Shown in pieces: positions 6,461 through 21,237 of a stretch of 52,837 nucleotides of DNA. The DNA is from a virus: positions 1 through 52,837 of IMG/VR virus record IMGVR_UViG_3300042361_000312. One strand, written 5' to 3'. The notes beneath the pieces were generated by a model that was not told the origin of the DNA, made no database searches, and saw nothing but the letters and a program-made list of their open reading frames with translations. Positions within the stretch are counted from its first letter, which is position 1, and every line of letters begins with the position of its first letter. The position numbers were made by a program, and so were the translations under genes.

Positions 6461-9231
6461 GCCGCACAATTCGCAAGCTGCTTGGAGAGGCCGACAATGT
6501 GCCTGACGCACCTCGCGTAAAGACTGGCGAAGGGGCCGCGCGCAAGGCCCTGGCCCAGAACCCGAACAAGGCTGGTCACAACGTAGACACTGCCCTTCCT
6601 CTCAGTTTTGTTCGCAACCTGATCTACAGCGGTGCGCCCGAGGACTTGGCACAGCTTCGCAAGATCGTGGACAACATGTCCCCCGATGAGCAAGACAAGC
6701 TCTTGCGAACCATCACGGCGGAAACACGCAATCCCCAGGTGGCTGGCATTGACCCCGCGACCAAGAAGCCCCGCCCGATTGAGCTTACCGAAGAAGGCAA
6801 GATGCTGGTCGATGCGGTGTTCAATGGGGTGGACCCGGATGCCTCTTGGATTCAGAACAAGCCTGCCACTCCTGGCGGTGGCGTTCGCCTGGACGGTATT
6901 GATGCACAGGCAGGGATGGAGCCAAAACCGTTCCAGCCAGAGAATCCATCGGAAGACCCCAAGGTTCTGAAGGACGTTACGAGCAATCGTGGTGAGCTTG
7001 GTCTGAGGAAGGGCAAGGACAAGGACGGCAACACCGTCTACTACCCCAAGTACACAGACGAGAACACTGACCCCCAGACGCGGCGGGCTATTGAGCGAGC
7101 CAACGAGGGTCTTCGTGTTGGCCCTGTCTATGACGATGCCGCCAACACTCCACGGGGATCGGGAGTCAATCCGCGTCCCCCAGGCAGGGCTCTGGCCGCA
7201 GGGACTCAGACCCCCAAGCAGAAAGCCACCGCGTTAATGAACCGGCTTGCTGAAAACAGCAATGCCCATGACGTAATCGACAGCAAGCGGGCAAGCGATC
7301 CGCTGATGTTCGACACTGCGGATAGCAGACAAGACAACCCTAGCGTCTTTGCTCCGGGTAACACCGGCAGCAAAATGAAGAGACACGTTACGAGTGTCCG
7401 GCCCGCCGACCACAGCGATGCACTTGATGCCTTCCGCACAGTGAAGAGGGGTGAGTTCACTACCCCCAACCAGCAGTACAGTTCCGCAGAAGAGTTCGCC
7501 CGTGATTTCGTTTCCACCACGAACAAAGAGAGCATGAACGTCACGCCCGTCACGGCAGGCGAGCGAGCGGATGCGACTGAGTTGCTTCAGGATTACAACC
7601 ACGATCCTGACTTCCCTGTTGATCGGATGAATGGCGGCGACATCCCCCCTGGCCAGATGGCCGAAAAGAAGGCTGGCCCTCTTCTTCGTCAGAATATGCC
7701 TGACTCAGTGAAGGCCGCACAGACGGCAGAGCGGGCACTGATGATGGAGCAAACGATTGCCTCCCTCACCCGCAAATTTGAGGATATTTTCGGGCATCAA
7801 GGGTGGGGCGAGAACTACAAGCCAAGCACCCGCCCGGGTACGAGTGATCCCATTGAGCGTGGCCCCGCAAGTGATGGCGTGGCTACCACTCAGGACCCAT
7901 CCAACGTCCCCAATCTTGGCACTCCGAACGTGCGTGGTGAGGCTCCTGCCTTGAAGTCGCGTGTCGCCCAAGGAAACCCCGGCACGGAACTTGGTGACGA
8001 GGTTGGCCCAGAAGAGCTTGCTGACCTTCAGCAACGAGTAAGTGGTGAAGGCGAACCAATCTCGACTGAAGAGGTGGACCCCAACTTTGCCCTTGGCCGA
8101 GACTTGGGTGACCGCCGTGGGGTGAACAGCAAGCCTGCCAAGGAACTCCCCGGCAACAAGCCAGGGTCTTACAACGCGGTTGTGTATGACGAGGACGGGA
8201 AGAAAAAGTATATCCCTGACGGCGACCGTCCCTTTGCTAGATACAACCGGGAGAACCGCGACGTTCCCCAGTCTGACCTTGATCGGCGGCGGCTGTTTGC
8301 GGAGGAAATGAGCAAGAAGGTCGGCACCGAGATGGAGCGCACCTCTGTCTTGCGTAGACAGTTGCGGGAGCTTTTGGAGTCCGATGAGCCCGAGGCCCCG
8401 GGCACCAGTGCTGCGGCGGCGAAGGCCACCAAGATTGCCGAACTTCAGCGACGGCTGACGTTGGCAAAGCGGCTGGACTCCATGTCTGGCATCAACTCCA
8501 TGCAGACGATGGACCGCGAGGCGGGAACCATAAACCGCTCGTTCAATCCCTTCCCGGCCCAGACCGGGGGAGACTTGATTCCTGTCACCCCGGCCAACCC
8601 AAGCTCTGCCGGTGGCTCTATGGTGCCCGGTAGTCAGAGTGCTGCCCCAGGTGGTGCGTTGATCCCAAGCACTACTGCCGACCTTCAGGGTGGCAAGCTG
8701 GCGGCATCCTCCACACCCATTGATGCTGACGAGATTCTGCCGCCCCGCAGGGACCTCGACCTCAACAACGAGCCGATTGATGCAGAGTTTGAGATCAAGA
8801 GAGAGCCTGATCCGGTTGAGGTTAAGAGAGAGCCTGACCTAGAAGATGTGGTAATCAACCGTCCTGAGGACCCGTCCGTACACACCCCTGATGCAACGCC
8901 GCAGGCCGAGCCTCAGTGGAAGAAATGGGCGAAGAGGGCTGGGCTTGTTGGTGGTGCGTTGGGCATTCGTGAACTCCTGATTCGTGGCGGGCAACCTCCA
9001 GTTGGTGGTGGGCAGCCGCCGGTTGGTGGTGGCATTGAGCCGCCACCCCCGGGCAACATCCCGCCGATGGGACCTCAAGGCCCAGAGGGATTCCCCTTCC
9101 CCTACGTTCCCCGTGGTGGCGAGGGAAGCCAAGACCTGGGTGCCAAGCCCGAGGACCGGATTCGTGCCCTGCGTAACTTCAACATGAACCTGAATCCCAA
9201 CACGCAAATTCTCCAGAACTGGACGAGGTAG
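6457..9231 (+). CDS. Very large disordered virion protein (ejection set, first)
   Basis: This 924-residue protein overlaps the previous gene by ATGA. Most of it is hydrophilic and low complexity, with scattered helices. Near the C-terminus is one hydrophobic segment (AGLVGGALGIRELLI, about residues 830-845) followed by two PPVGGGQ-type repeats and a Pro/Gly tail. No catalytic motif was found. Its size, and its place ahead of two further large proteins (456 and 1212 residues), suggest the internal or ejected proteins of podoviruses (compare the T7 gp14/15/16 set), by gene order and size only. Confidence 0.5.
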   Translation: MSRTIRKLLGEADNVPDAPRVKTGEGAARKALAQNPNKAGHNVDTALPLSFVRNLIYSGAPEDLAQLRKIVDNMSPDEQDKLLRTITAETRNPQVAGIDPATKKPRPIELTEEGKMLVDAVFNGVDPDASWIQNKPATPGGGVRLDGIDAQAGMEPKPFQPENPSEDPKVLKDVTSNRGELGLRKGKDKDGNTVYYPKYTDENTDPQTRRAIERANEGLRVGPVYDDAANTPRGSGVNPRPPGRALAAGTQTPKQKATALMNRLAENSNAHDVIDSKRASDPLMFDTADSRQDNPSVFAPGNTGSKMKRHVTSVRPADHSDALDAFRTVKRGEFTTPNQQYSSAEEFARDFVSTTNKESMNVTPVTAGERADATELLQDYNHDPDFPVDRMNGGDIPPGQMAEKKAGPLLRQNMPDSVKAAQTAERALMMEQTIASLTRKFEDIFGHQGWGENYKPSTRPGTSDPIERGPASDGVATTQDPSNVPNLGTPNVRGEAPALKSRVAQGNPGTELGDEVGPEELADLQQRVSGEGEPISTEEVDPNFALGRDLGDRRGVNSKPAKELPGNKPGSYNAVVYDEDGKKKYIPDGDRPFARYNRENRDVPQSDLDRRRLFAEEMSKKVGTEMERTSVLRRQLRELLESDEPEAPGTSAAAAKATKIAELQRRLTLAKRLDSMSGINSMQTMDREAGTINRSFNPFPAQTGGDLIPVTPANPSSAGGSMVPGSQSAAPGGALIPSTTADLQGGKLAASSTPIDADEILPPRRDLDLNNEPIDAEFEIKREPDPVEVKREPDLEDVVINRPEDPSVHTPDATPQAEPQWKKWAKRAGLVGGALGIRELLIRGGQPPVGGGQPPVGGGIEPPPPGNIPPMGPQGPEGFPFPYVPRGGEGSQDLGAKPEDRIRALRNFNMNLNPNTQILQNWTR

Positions 9232-16860: not shown

Positions 16861-17407
16861 AGCCGACATCGACCAGCTTGAAGGGTACTTGTGTCGCGCC
16901 ACCCTTAATGAGTTGCCCAACGTGCTGATGAAAGTCTTGCCGTTGCTGTTCGCGGAGTTGCGAACCATGCAGTCGGCCCTGGATGAACAAGCGGAGAACT
17001 TCTTCGATGGGTTGCTTGAGAGAGATGACGGACGAGGACGAGGTGCTTCTGTCGGAACTGGTGTCGCAGGGGCTGGACTTCCTAGAGGTCAGGAAGCGGA
17101 TGCCGGACCTGCGGCTCCACGAACTGCGGAGCCAATACACCCAGTATCGGCGGTCAGCCAGGAGCGGGTTGATGAGGCCAGTGCCGGACGATCTGGCCGA
17201 GCGGATCAAGTGGGTTCAAGACCAGTGGACAACGCACGAATGGTCAACCCGGTGGGTGGGGAGGTTCGCCAACAAGAAGGAGACAGACCTGTCGATGGCA
17301 GCCAGCCAGATGCTTCAGTGAGGAAGCGTCGGGGGCGACCACCAAAGAAGTCATCGGTGTTGGATGGAGCGTTGGGAATCGAACCAATTACACACGGAGG
17401 TGAGTGA
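16850..17407 (+). CDS. Protein with AT-hook-like tail, overlaps another frame
   Basis: GTG 16850 follows GAGGAGG, giving 185 residues. The first ~60 residues form convincing amphipathic helices (VLSKADIDQLEGYLCRATLN...). The middle is Gly/Arg/Ala-rich and looks like the shadow of a second gene in the +1 frame (17025-17321). The last 30 residues contain a basic RKRRGRPPKK AT-hook-like motif. Either two genes share about 300 bases, or the frame is a 60-residue protein plus accidental read-through, or a frameshift joins parts. The stop lies at the csrA start. Confidence 0.5.
   Translation: MLSKADIDQLEGYLCRATLNELPNVLMKVLPLLFAELRTMQSALDEQAENFFDGLLERDDGRGRGASVGTGVAGAGLPRGQEADAGPAAPRTAEPIHPVSAVSQERVDEASAGRSGRADQVGSRPVDNARMVNPVGGEVRQQEGDRPVDGSQPDASVRKRRGRPPKKSSVLDGALGIEPITHGGE
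17025..17321 (+). CDS. Small HTH-like protein, nested in another frame
   Basis: ATG 17025 after GAGAG gives 98 residues. The composition is typical of a real globular helical protein, with Trp pairs and acidic/basic balance (MTDEDEVLLSELVSQGLDFL, WVQDQWTTHEWSTRWVGRF). It reads like a small DNA-binding domain that begins with a helix-turn-helix-type EVLLSELVSQGL segment. It lies wholly inside 16850-17407 in a different frame. Its codon-level plausibility is better than the overlapped middle part of the other frame. Confidence 0.6.
   Translation: MTDEDEVLLSELVSQGLDFLEVRKRMPDLRLHELRSQYTQYRRSARSGLMRPVPDDLAERIKWVQDQWTTHEWSTRWVGRFANKKETDLSMAASQMLQ
17392..17401 (+). promoter_or_regulatory. CsrA-consensus match in the csrA ribosome binding site
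   Basis: ACACGGAGGT fits the CsrA core consensus ACANGGANGT at all fixed positions and contains the Shine-Dalgarno GGAGG of the downstream csrA-like gene. This is the classic arrangement for translational autorepression. Confidence 0.5.
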
Positions 17408-17625
17408 TGTTGGTGCTAGGCCGCAGGGTGAATCAGACCATCGTGATCGAACCGGGGAACATCAAGATCACGGTGACGCACATCACCCAAGGTGGTGCCG
17501 TGCGGATCGGGATCGACGCGCCCCCTGAGTACACGATTCTCAGGGAGGAGTTGGTCGGGAAGTACGGCAGGCTGCAAGCGCAGGCCGAGCGGGAGGAGCG
17601 TCGTCGCCAGGAAGGGGGTGTCTGA
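17407..17625 (+). CDS. csrA: CsrA/RsmA-family RNA-binding regulator
   Basis: The 72-residue product starts at ATG 17407 after CGGAGGTGAGTG. It aligns end to end with CsrA: MLVLGRRVNQTIVI, then a beta-strand, then VRIGIDAP and REEL. The RNA-contacting residues Leu4, Arg6, Arg7 and Arg46 (E. coli Arg44) are all present. The C-terminal tail is charged and helical. CsrA dimers bind two GGA motifs, usually in hairpin loops and over ribosome binding sites, and block or activate translation. The gene lies between recombination genes and a helicase (TGATG coupling). Likely targets are discussed under the GGA-hairpin leaders. Confidence 0.95.
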   Translation: MLVLGRRVNQTIVIEPGNIKITVTHITQGGAVRIGIDAPPEYTILREELVGKYGRLQAQAEREERRRQEGGV

Positions 17626-19199
17626 TGAAGAAAGGACAAGTCTTCCTGCCCCTGTTCGACACCGATGTGCTTCGCCCCTACCAGAAGGAAGCCATCGTCG
17701 CCATCCGGCAGGCATACCGAGATGGGCACCAAGCTGTTCTTCTCGTCCTGCCTACGGGTGTCGGGAAGACCACCGCGTTCGTCGCCCTGCCCCGCGAAGG
17801 GGCAAGGGTGATGGTGGTGTCGGGCCAGGATGCCGTGAACAAGCAGACCGTGGCCACCATCCGCAGGCTGCGGGGCCGGGTGGCATCGGTCGAACAGGCC
17901 ATCCTCAAGGCGGATGCTGGCGACGAGTGGATCGTGGCTACCCACCAGACCTTGAAAATGAATGGCAGGTACAAGCGGTTTGTCGGGCACGTTGACCTGA
18001 TCATTATTGACGAGGCTGACATTCATTTCTCTGTGAAGTTCAGGGAGATGATGCAGGAGTTCATCGCCGCCGGGGCGAGGGTGCTGGGAGTAACAGCTAC
18101 ACCCCACCGAGCCGACAAACACAGCCCGCTGTTCGGCTTCTACACCTCATGCCCCTACTCAATGGAGCTAATGGAAGCCTTCAAGCAGGGCTGGCTGGTA
18201 AAGCCGAGGGTCATTGTCCACACCGTCAAGTCCATTAACTTCGATGCCCTTACCAAGACGAAGGTGGACTTCCTGCCCCATGAGATCGACGGCATCCTCA
18301 TGTCCGAGTCTGTCCGGCATGACATATGTCAACTGGTGAAGCAGCACCACAAGAAGAGTCACGGTGTAATCCGCTGCCGGTCTGTGCCCCAGGCAAAGGC
18401 CATCAGGGAGATGCTGACCGACCGCTATGGGCTCAAGGTTTCGTGCGTCTGGGGGGAGCAGAACCCCGAGGAGCGAGAGGCCGAGATCAAGAAGTTTGAG
18501 AGCGGCGAGAACACTCTCATTACCAATTGCCGGGTGCTTGGGCGCGGCTGGGATTGCCCTCAGGTCAACGAGATTTTCAATGCGGCCCCCACGAAATCGA
18601 AGGGCACGTTCCTTCAAGGTCTGGGACGGGGGACCAGGGCACTGACCGGGACCCTAGATGGACTGCACACGGCAGAGGAGAGGCTGGCTGCCATCGCTGC
18701 CAGTGCCAAGCCGGACTGGATTTTCCACGACATCACGAACACCAGCCGGTTCCACTCCCCGGTCACTGCCATTGAGATGCTCCTGAGCGGGCCGAAGGAG
18801 ATCATCGACAAGATCAAGGAGCAAAGCACGGACGAGGAAGTCACGCTGGATGAACTGGATGCCAGCTTGCAGGCCGAGCTTGATGCCCTCAAGGAACTGG
18901 AGCGGCTGGAACGCGAGGCCGAGAAGGAGCGGAGGAAGAAGCTGGTCATCGGGGTCACCTTCGATTCCCGGTCCCGTGACCTGTTCGCCCGCCCCGATGC
19001 CAAGACTCCCACCGTGCGTGGATTCAGGGTGCCCTTTGGCAGATGGCGAGGAAGGCCCCTGCGTGACCCTGTGGTGCCCTTGTCCTACCTCCAGTGGATG
19101 TTGAGGGAGGGCAAGCTGAATGCCATGTGGTCGGCTGCCGTGAAGCAAGAGGTGGATCGCCGTGAGGCAGTGCTGGCAGAGGAGGTGGCCCAATGGTGA
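17625..19199 (+). CDS. SF2 DEAD-box helicase with DUF3820-like tail
   Basis: The 524-residue protein starts in a TGATG overlap with csrA. Motifs: LRPYQ (16-20), Walker A PTGVGKTT (43-50), DEAD (129-132), a TATP motif (about 160) and a C-terminal motif VI-like QGLGRGTRALTG. The domain order matches restriction-helicase/UvsW-like SF2 ATPases used by phages for replication and recombination. A second region of basic coiled coil leads to a C-terminal VPFGRWRGRPLRD...YLQWML segment resembling the DUF3820 or ExoX-C-type module. It probably unwinds or remodels DNA for ERF-dependent recombination or replication initiation. Confidence 0.9.
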   Translation: MKKGQVFLPLFDTDVLRPYQKEAIVAIRQAYRDGHQAVLLVLPTGVGKTTAFVALPREGARVMVVSGQDAVNKQTVATIRRLRGRVASVEQAILKADAGDEWIVATHQTLKMNGRYKRFVGHVDLIIIDEADIHFSVKFREMMQEFIAAGARVLGVTATPHRADKHSPLFGFYTSCPYSMELMEAFKQGWLVKPRVIVHTVKSINFDALTKTKVDFLPHEIDGILMSESVRHDICQLVKQHHKKSHGVIRCRSVPQAKAIREMLTDRYGLKVSCVWGEQNPEEREAEIKKFESGENTLITNCRVLGRGWDCPQVNEIFNAAPTKSKGTFLQGLGRGTRALTGTLDGLHTAEERLAAIAASAKPDWIFHDITNTSRFHSPVTAIEMLLSGPKEIIDKIKEQSTDEEVTLDELDASLQAELDALKELERLEREAEKERRKKLVIGVTFDSRSRDLFARPDAKTPTVRGFRVPFGRWRGRPLRDPVVPLSYLQWMLREGKLNAMWSAAVKQEVDRREAVLAEEVAQW

Positions 19200-19666
19200 A
19201 ACCAGTCGCAGCATTCCTAGAGGATTTCCGCAAAAGCATACGAGCGGTAGAGAGATTCGCTGCCCTGCTTCGCAGGAAGAACGTGTCTGTCTGGCTGTCA
19301 CCAACCGAGATGACACCAGACATTGAGTCCCGCATGGATTACGCGGATAGCGGCGACCTGATGCTTCAGCTACGAGCCGAACACAAAGTCAGAACCATCC
19401 AGTTCACAAGCAGGGAAGACTTCCCATTCCCAACCATCATCATTGACGAGAAGTACAAGGTGGATGCTAAGGCCAAACAGTCTGCCCTGTTTGCCTACTT
19501 CATCGAATCATCTGACGGCCAGTGCGTGGCCTGCGTCTACGGTCACACCAAGCACAGGTGGAAGACCAAGGATGCCTATGACAAAAAGCAGGGGCGAGAC
19601 TGCACCTACTACGTCGTGCCAATTGAGTGCGTCAGATTTTGCAAGCCAGAGGAAATTTTTCTTTGA
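19193..19666 (+). CDS. Possible small nuclease-fold protein
   Basis: This 157-residue protein overlaps the helicase by 7 bases. The core SGDLMLQLRAEHKVRTIQF resembles the D-x(n)-E-x-K strand of PD-(D/E)XK nucleases. It is followed by FPFPTIIIDE and an Arg/Lys/Tyr-rich C-terminal half (HTKHRWKTKDAYDKK). No profile can be assigned by eye. Coupling to the helicase suggests a role in DNA processing. Confidence 0.45.
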   Translation: MVKPVAAFLEDFRKSIRAVERFAALLRRKNVSVWLSPTEMTPDIESRMDYADSGDLMLQLRAEHKVRTIQFTSREDFPFPTIIIDEKYKVDAKAKQSALFAYFIESSDGQCVACVYGHTKHRWKTKDAYDKKQGRDCTYYVVPIECVRFCKPEEIFL

Positions 19667-19679
19667 CCAAACCCTTGAC

Positions 19680-20325
19680 CAAATTTCAGCGGCAGGGTAA
19701 CGCTGGTCACAACGACACAATCAGCAATAGCAAGGAGAACACAAACGCTTTTGTCTTGGGGGCCCGATCTCTCGCACTGACCCGATCACCCGCCGTGGAG
19801 TTGGGCAGCCGTGATAACGGATGGAGTAAGGCAAGGCCGACCGGCAGCGACTGCAATCTGAGGAAGTAACTTGAGTGTTACCTTCGGCTCTAGCTTTCCC
19901 GGGTCGCAACTACTGCAACTCCTAACGAAAAGGGAGAGCCCGGGCCCCTGAGACAGAAGCAACAAGCTGTCAGCCGAGAGTGGCTGTCAGGATATGGGGG
20001 ACGATTAAAGCCCTGAACCGTTCGATGTAGGGGCCTATCCTCAACAGGGTCTAACCCAGAGGTAAGACAGACGGGCGTGACGATGTTCACAAGGCGACAG
20101 ACGAAGGGCCGGGAGTAGGCAGCAGCCGAAAGGTGCCCGAGGTGGTAGCTGAACCGCTGCTTCCACCGTGCAGTTCGCGTAAAGGTGACACCCAACTCTC
20201 TCGTCTACGGGAGGACTGAGGTCGCAGTAAGGAAATGCAGGCAGCTTAGTCTCGCTTGCACAGGGGCAATGAGGTCGTTTTGCAATGGGCTTTAGGTCCT
20301 ATTTTTTAGGTGCCATTGCCCCCGG
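19680..20325 (+). ncRNA. Candidate large structured non-coding RNA (~650 nt)
   Basis: No coding frame with plausible composition spans 19667-20392. Many local hairpins are visible on the plus strand: GTAAC/GTTAC at 19867; CCCGGG/CCCGGG enclosing CTCC/GGAG at 19898-19943; AGCC/GGCT around 19971; GTGA/TCAC near 20077; GGCA/TGCC enclosing a GCC-GAAA-GGT tetraloop near 20120; and GGTGG/CCACC at 20141-20167. A 9-bp long-range pair, GGGGCAATG (20262) with CATTGCCCC (20312), closes the 3' part and encloses a T6 run. A tandem TTGACCAAA and a possible TTGACC-17-TAACGC promoter lie at 19665-19702. It does not match RNase P, tmRNA or intron signatures I can recall. Confidence 0.5.
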
Positions 20326-20392
20326 TGTAGGCGGGTTAGATGCGACGATGCGGTGTGTGATTCGGAAGAACACCATTGAGAAAGGAAGTTCG

Positions 20393-20887
20393 ATGAGCAA
20401 GCACAGGGTAAAGACGAGGTGGAGAGGTTGGCACCACCAACACGGTGGGCAGAGGGACAGCACACCCAAGGTGGTGACGCAGACGGTTAAGTTCGGCCAC
20501 CCTGATTGGGTCATGCAAAGCGGCAGGCATACGGGCGTGAAGATAAGTGACCTGCCTATGGACTTTCTAGAGTGGGCAGCCAGCAAGATGGGGTGGGATT
20601 GGGCAAGAGAAGAGATAGCCAGAAGGTATTCGACCTTGCCTTCCCCAAAGAAGTCTTCTCCCCCACCGAAACCAAAGAAAGAAACACAGACTCGCAATCA
20701 TTCCGGTGATTACAAAGAGGGCTGCGAATACCAAAGGCTGCGGCTTGAGTTTGACCGTGCTGATGGTGATGCTGACGAGTGCCCTTTTAATACCAATAGT
20801 TATACTTACACAGGTCCATCCATTTGCTGGGTTGGTGGGCAGCCTGTCATTGTCCCCAGTGAGTTTCCTAAGGAGGCAGGTCTATGA
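20393..20887 (+). CDS. Hypothetical phage protein
   Basis: ATG 20393 after AAAGGAAG gives 164 residues. The start of the longer open frame (20285) would run into the structured non-coding region and is rejected. The N-terminus is basic with His and Trp (HRVKTRWRGWHHQHGGQ). A middle part (KFGHPDWVMQSGRHTGVKIS) and a disordered Ser/Pro/Lys linker follow. No domain is recognised; the next gene overlaps by 4 bases. Confidence 0.6.
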   Translation: MSKHRVKTRWRGWHHQHGGQRDSTPKVVTQTVKFGHPDWVMQSGRHTGVKISDLPMDFLEWAASKMGWDWAREEIARRYSTLPSPKKSSPPPKPKKETQTRNHSGDYKEGCEYQRLRLEFDRADGDADECPFNTNSYTYTGPSICWVGGQPVIVPSEFPKEAGL

Positions 20888-21237
20888 AGATTCGACACAA
20901 GACAGATCGTATGGAGATTGAGGTTGAGGGTAGTGACGTTAAGGAATGTTTCGTGGAGTTGGCCCAGTCCATTGAGGTGTTCTCCCAGAGCGTGTGCGGT
21001 GCCTGTCAAAGCCCAGACACCATGCCCACCGTGAGGGAGCGTGATGGAAATTCCTATCACGAAATGCGTTGCAATTCCTGCGGCGCAACCCTTTCGTTCG
21101 GGCAGACCCGAGTGGGCAACAAGCTGTACCCCAGGCGTAAGGGCAAGGATGGTTCCTTCCTGAGTGGCAATGGCTGGGTGAAGTGGCAGCAACGCGAGGC
21201 AGCACCATCCGCCGCCGCCTTCGATGACGCTTTCTAG
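20884..21237 (+). CDS. Zinc-ribbon protein
   Basis: The 117-residue product overlaps the previous gene by ATGA. Two Cys pairs (CGACQSPDT and CNSCGATL, about residues 37-40 and 61-64) form a zinc ribbon. This is followed by a basic segment (GNKLYPRRKGKDG) and an Ala/Asp tail. Such single-ribbon phage proteins commonly bind nucleic acid; the specific role is unknown. Confidence 0.7.
   Translation: MKIRHKTDRMEIEVEGSDVKECFVELAQSIEVFSQSVCGACQSPDTMPTVRERDGNSYHEMRCNSCGATLSFGQTRVGNKLYPRRKGKDGSFLSGNGWVKWQQREAAPSAAAFDDAF

Follow-up and report, generated by a model that had tools for sequence, protein, structure and literature searches.

Noncoding nature of the gap at 19667–20392

What is encoded in a long intergenic gap within a replication/recombination gene cluster of a phage? 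The window, which is the whole 52,837-nt stretch of viral DNA analysed here (IMG/VR record IMGVR_UViG_3300042361_000312), is an uncultured tailed phage record that codes for portal, terminase and head protein families, and also for an integrase, an exonuclease VIII-like protein, an Erf annealer and a helicase. An earlier sequence-only reading placed a candidate structured noncoding RNA in a gap of ~725 bp within a dense operon of this phage, and proposed an Rfam search (GOLLD, ROOL, HEARO and intron models) and an analysis of pairing in homologues as checks. We propose, with a probability of roughly 0.6, that the region at 19667–20392 is one allele (type A) of a swappable phage noncoding-RNA gene, the product of which would act in trans and the place of which, termed the slot, is fixed within an early replication/recombination cassette.

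The gap between the ORF at 19193–19666 and the ORF at 20393–20887 is 726 nt long, in agreement with the earlier estimate. It contains 6–15 stop codons per frame in all six frames, and the tested ORFs overlapping it on both strands give no convincing Pfam match. The lone weak match (E 0.049) belongs to the downstream gene's own portion of ORF 20285–20887. Neither a long conserved frame nor a protein family match is found in the gap, and the statement that it has no coding potential is upheld. The minimum free energy of the gap relative to dinucleotide shuffles is ordinary (z −1.05 for the + strand and +0.12 for the − strand). The many hairpins reported earlier are present as letters, but not beyond chance, and their number alone is therefore no evidence for an RNA. 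The GAAA tetraloop hairpin is located at 20125–20134 (GCC-GAAA-GGU). The long-range pair, which was given as 9 bp, exists, but is actually 20 bp long.

No GOLLD, ROOL, intron or HEARO match is obtained in the whole window at the Rfam gathering threshold, and the search relaxed to E≤10 over 19550–20500 yields two chance hits and otherwise nothing. The proposed Rfam check thus matches no family, and the sequence-only reading was right in not recognising the conserved parts of GOLLD and ROOL. The relaxed-threshold Rfam searches of the slot sequences give chance matches only. ARAGORN detects no tRNA in the window, BLAST of type A against phage and plasmid records gives no match, and a literature search for a description of this locus found none. 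HEARO and a group I or group II intron are rejected, because their Rfam models give no match; the introns are also rejected because the slot lies between genes in every relative and is never empty, being occupied by other noncoding sequences.

Conservation of the type A RNA

A copy of type A is present at 8066–8791 of a related phage (L008), with 97.2% identity over 726 nt, or 20 differences. In the DNA flanking this block, the identity between the window and L008 falls to about 35–70%. Upstream of the block, L008 has a different gene from the window, and downstream, the beginning of the next ORF is only about 60% identical between the two phages. This block-wise conservation, together with the pair-sparing changes described below and the lack of a coding or Rfam match, defines the predicted type A gene at 19667–20392 on the + strand (~700 nt, ends approximate). 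Its 3' third (20169–20392, + strand), in which the long hairpin at 20263–20322 is located, shows 0 substitutions relative to L008 in 224 nt.

When the window copy is folded, 2 pairs are broken in L008, as compared with 10.9 expected (P < 0.0002). When the conserved element at the 5' border is left out, 2 pairs are broken, as compared with about 7.6 expected (P 0.0014 and 0.0020 in two runs). The signal is weaker when the L008 copy is folded (P 0.03–0.04). The reverse strand of type A gives P of 0.10–0.17, and two 700-nt helicase coding controls give P of 0.16 and 0.81. In the predicted fold, the 20-bp long-range helix is formed on the + strand between 19747–19766 and 19941–19960, and a compensatory change from G-C to U-A is observed in this helix at 19761/19946 between the window and L008. 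These results support the idea that type A evolves like a folded + strand RNA, as judged from two sequences; its structure is weakly tested, because only these two sequences with 20 differences are known. The support for a structured RNA at this site is therefore comparative, as the folding energy is ordinary, and the proposed pairing check yields a pair-sparing pattern and one compensatory change from a single pair of type A sequences. The + strand transcript is predicted to fold into a large RNA, in which the 20-bp helix would enclose a multi-branched domain.

Replacement of type A by unrelated RNAs in related phages

Relatives were collected by means of the helicase of the window and a 117-aa zinc-ribbon protein encoded downstream of the gap. 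Type A is present in the window and L008. The slot is occupied by type B in L006 and L009 (~490 nt, folding z −3.9), by type C in L007 (~345 nt, z −2.3), by type D in L018 and L019 (~460 nt, z −2.2), and by type E in 14 distinct sequences and L089 (~240–280 nt). BLAST among the slot sequences gives no match between types at E below 0.1. In the five close phages, the first ~41 nt of the gap are alike and the remainder differs by type. Type B passes the pair-sparing test on both strands, so that this test gives no strand for type B. Type D terminates in a hairpin followed by a T6 tract. In L091, the slot (2317–2650) is occupied by yet another noncoding sequence, termed type F, which shows no BLAST relation to types A–E; the ORF following it resembles the ORF at 19193–19666 of the window by eye.

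The exchange is most clearly seen between L089 and L018. The ends of their helicase genes are 97.8% identical, and their DNA from the start of the zinc-ribbon gene onward is 97.8–99.2% identical. Between these flanks, L089 carries type E and L018 carries type D, and a 26-nt element containing TTGACA is present in both. This replacement between near-isogenic phages indicates that the slot holds swappable RNA genes. Two further differences between L089 and L018 are the accessory ORF that immediately precedes the slot and a segment about 1.1 kb downstream. This second swapped segment (9611–9741 in L018 and 1807–2308 in L089) follows the same kind of element, AAAGATACACAGACTTGACACGG, and consists of two short ORFs in L089 and a short noncoding stretch in L018. 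The sequence-only reading missed that the gap holds one allele of a slot that contains unrelated RNAs in sister phages, and that a family of such RNAs, type E, is present in distant phages.

The dense operon that had been described around the gap is the helicase/zinc-ribbon replication-recombination cassette, not a tRNA island. Its order would be helicase, optional accessory ORF, RNA, optional accessory ORF and zinc-ribbon gene. The SF2 DEAD/ResIII-type helicase gene (17625–19199, + strand) is located directly, or one ORF, upstream of the slot in the relatives retaining that stretch. The accessory ORF between the helicase gene and the RNA (19193–19666, + strand) has a 99% identical counterpart in L009, a type B phage, whereas L008, which carries type A, has another ORF instead. 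Because the same ORF precedes type A in the window and type B in L009, the RNA and its neighbours are exchanged independently. The ORF directly 3' of the RNA (20393–20887, + strand; 164 aa, with the Shine-Dalgarno sequence AAGGAAG) varies among phages. It is followed by the gene for the zinc-ribbon protein (20884–21237, + strand), which serves as the anchor for locating the slot in other phages and has an acidic C-terminal tail ending in F. Many of its homologues likewise end in an acidic stretch and F (DDAF, EIEPF, RIPF, DTPF). SSB tips consist of an acidic stretch and then F, and by this analogy the anchor is possibly a single-strand-binding or adaptor protein. The structure model of the anchor (pLDDT 79) gives no structural match at E≤0.001.

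A helicase scan of GTDB genomes detects only remote helicases (best 32% identity), and no terminase relatives are found among 50,697 phage records. tRNA-like matches are located roughly 4–5.5 kb upstream of the RNA slot in five relatives. The match in L090 (1867–1939; 31.5 bits) is above the Rfam threshold, and those in L096 (1682–1751), L092 (1744–1788), L007 (3151–3213) and L008 (2435–2506) are below it.

Border element upstream of the RNA

The conserved 5' boundary element of ~41–42 nt, TTGACCnAACCnTTGnCnnAnnnTCAnnGGCAGGGTAACGCT, is located at 19663–19704 on the + strand and is common to the five close phages regardless of which RNA comes next. The TTGACC at 19663–19668 within it is kept in all five. 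The promoter proposed earlier does not hold, although its letters are present (TTGACC at 19675–19680, a 17-nt spacer and TAACGC at 19698–19703). It fails the sigma-70 scan. Its −35 sequence is not conserved, being TTGCCA in L006 but TTGCCC in L007, and in L007 and L008 the upstream ORF terminates at the TAA of TAACGC. The sigma-70 scan by consensus detects no promoter, the TTGAC element included. The element (19664–19704 in the window) also codes for S[FV]D[RL]TL[AD]QKS[QR]AG-stop, which forms the C-termini of two different upstream ORFs upon translation (7572–8102 in L007 and 7572–8099 in L008). Because the element lies within these ORF ends, it may act at both the protein and nucleic-acid levels. 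It is a possible promoter and/or hairpin, and it marks the junction of the swaps. One RNA would be exchanged for another, structurally unrelated one through recombination at conserved borders, namely the TTGAC-containing element on the 5' side and the start of the next gene on the 3' side, and transcription may start from the border element.

Type E RNA family

Type E constitutes a new RNA family, in which covariation is strong and two pseudoknots are present. A search with a pattern from its core, CGAGCCTAAANAA(N10-22)GGAGNGG, yielded further phages. Fourteen distinct sequences were kept, and L099, L102, L104 and L117 were discarded as chance matches to this pattern. The helicases of the type E contigs are from 52% down to 29% identical to that of the window. 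Type E is located just 3' of the helicase gene in every type E phage retaining that stretch, and is often preceded by a TTGAC element.

The order of the elements is P1, P2, P3, P4 enclosing P5/P6, AAUAAGG and P7, with the end near GGGGUCUAG. In pseudoknot 1, the CUCG loop of P1 pairs with a downstream CGAG (CGAGCCUAAA). This pairing is invariant, so that pseudoknot 1 has no covariation of its own. In pseudoknot 2, the 5' strand of P7 is located inside P4. Conserved unpaired stretches are also present. The alignment of the 5' domain, which was fitted to the model, has 99.1% of its cells paired and 21 cells with double changes. The covariation of this domain is 0.272, as compared with 0.056 for shuffled alignments (0/500 for all measures), and the structure fails when it is slid along the alignment. 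The covariation of the middle domain (P5/P6) is 0.382, as compared with 0.111 for shuffled alignments (0/500), again in an alignment fitted to the model. The alignment-free strand permutation gives P of 5e-5 for P1, below 5e-5 for P4, 0.0025 for P5 and 0.013 for P7. L089, which was outside the building of both models, scores 20.6 bits with model R1 (P1 with its loop pairing, P2 and P3) and 45.8 bits with model R2 (the P5/P6 domain), the latter with a rough E-value of 8.5e-10.

No Rfam family matches type E, and type E is absent at the DNA level from phage and plasmid records. Nor does the search pattern occur in the genomes (392 and 388) sampled from the phyla surrounding two helicase-bearing MAGs (Phycisphaeraceae and Chthoniobacteraceae). 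The gap of the window occupies the same position as type E, downstream of a helicase gene and upstream of a zinc-ribbon gene. However, the best scores of the window with filters off are 3.3 bits for R1 and 4.3 bits for R2. Type A is thus not detectably type E; the slot and the TTGAC border element are common to them, but the fold is not. Type D with filters off, and types B and C with default filters, show no homology to either type E model.

Possible roles of the slot RNAs

The RNA is replaced between L089 and L018 while the helicase and zinc-ribbon genes remain near-identical. This result speaks against a match between the RNA and those proteins and favours an exchangeable function, which is probably directed to the host or to competitors. 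Type A would then be a stand-alone, early, trans-acting phage RNA, which may serve in host takeover, in counter-defence or in exclusion, and not as a fixed structural part of the phage's own replication machinery. This suggestion comes from a single observation, the fast turnover of the RNA between unchanged neighbours. It may further be, and we put this forward only tentatively, that this phage lineage possesses a dedicated slot for at least five mutually unrelated RNA classes, each of which would target the host or competing phages in trans.

The same exchange makes it rather unlikely that the slot RNA works together with the replication/recombination genes beside it, for example as a replication primer or a helicase-recruiting cofactor. 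The candidate partners are the helicase, the Erf annealer, the exonuclease and the zinc-ribbon protein with its SSB-like tail. The constant position behind the helicase gene in type E phages, kept as helicase identity falls from 52% to 29%, and the terminal F after the acidic stretch of the anchor proteins are consistent with such a partner, but the structure model of the anchor has no significant match.

A long 5' leader, or riboregulator, acting in cis on the next gene is improbable, although in the window, L018 and L089 the end of the RNA is closely followed by a start codon, and the zinc-ribbon gene directly follows the RNA in some type E phages. The gene downstream of the slot is an unrelated ORF, an HNH gene or the zinc-ribbon gene, depending on the phage; L107 and L108 have a separate TTGACA element between the RNA and the zinc-ribbon gene; and the hairpin with the T tract in type D resembles a terminator in front of the gene. 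These three observations favour a stand-alone RNA over a cis leader, and L089 and L018 exchange the RNA but keep the gene.

It is likewise quite improbable that the slot is a DNA element, either a replication origin or a recombination hot spot, the inverted repeats of which form DNA hairpins. The slot is noncoding, prone to recombination and within a replication cassette, and the both-strand result for type B would fit such an element. In contrast, the pair-sparing signal of type A is confined to the + strand, the interleaved pseudoknots of type E (P1 loop/CGAG and P4/P7) and its conserved unpaired stretches are typical of RNA, and the sequence is replaced wholesale in near-isogenic phages.

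A functionless recombination leftover would agree with the mosaic region and the ordinary folding energy, but is very improbable, because type A is conserved more than its coding neighbours and its changes avoid pairs; for type E it is already disfavoured by covariation kept across phages with helicases differing by up to 70%. A CsrB/RsmZ-like sponge for CsrA/RsmA, suggested by the homologue encoded inside the recombination cassette at 17407–17625 (Pfam PF02599, E 5e-17), is rejected for type A and has almost no likelihood in general, because GGA triplets are not enriched in type A (14, as compared with 17.6 expected from shuffles) and lie at most about one standard deviation above shuffles in types B–E, and because no CsrA match is found in the type E loci.

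Comparison with known systems

GOLLD genes are often located near tRNA islands. GOLLD is a large structured noncoding RNA found in phages and prophages, the function of which is poorly understood, and ROOL env-120 is a phage-borne RNA of 659 nt with unknown function (PMC12286853). Type A is large and phage-borne like GOLLD, but is smaller, has no Rfam match at E≤10, is not accompanied by a tRNA island, and is replaced by unrelated RNAs in sister phages. It is similar to ROOL in size (~700 versus 659 nt) and is also phage-borne, but differs from ROOL in having no Rfam match and in its helicase/zinc-ribbon cassette setting. ROOL and GOLLD are characterised by an RNA-only homo-oligomeric cage. 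Type E shares with type A the slot, its noncoding nature and, often, a TTGAC element in front; however, type A is about three times longer and matches neither type E model.

To our knowledge, GOLLD, ROOL and similar large phage RNAs remain without function, partly because no clean allele comparison exists. The near-isogenic phages with different slot RNAs make the function of phage RNAs testable by allele swap, and type E offers a well-supported pseudoknotted structure for such a comparison. As the slot is easily located through its anchoring genes, more such RNAs may be discovered by synteny rather than by sequence.

The 'moron' gene cassettes of temperate phages are swappable. The slot RNA resembles them in that it is independently exchanged at a fixed site with conserved borders, but its cargo is RNA rather than protein-coding. 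If the slot is indeed dedicated to unrelated RNAs acting on the host or on competing phages, it would correspond, at the level of RNA, to variable accessory-gene or counter-defence islands.
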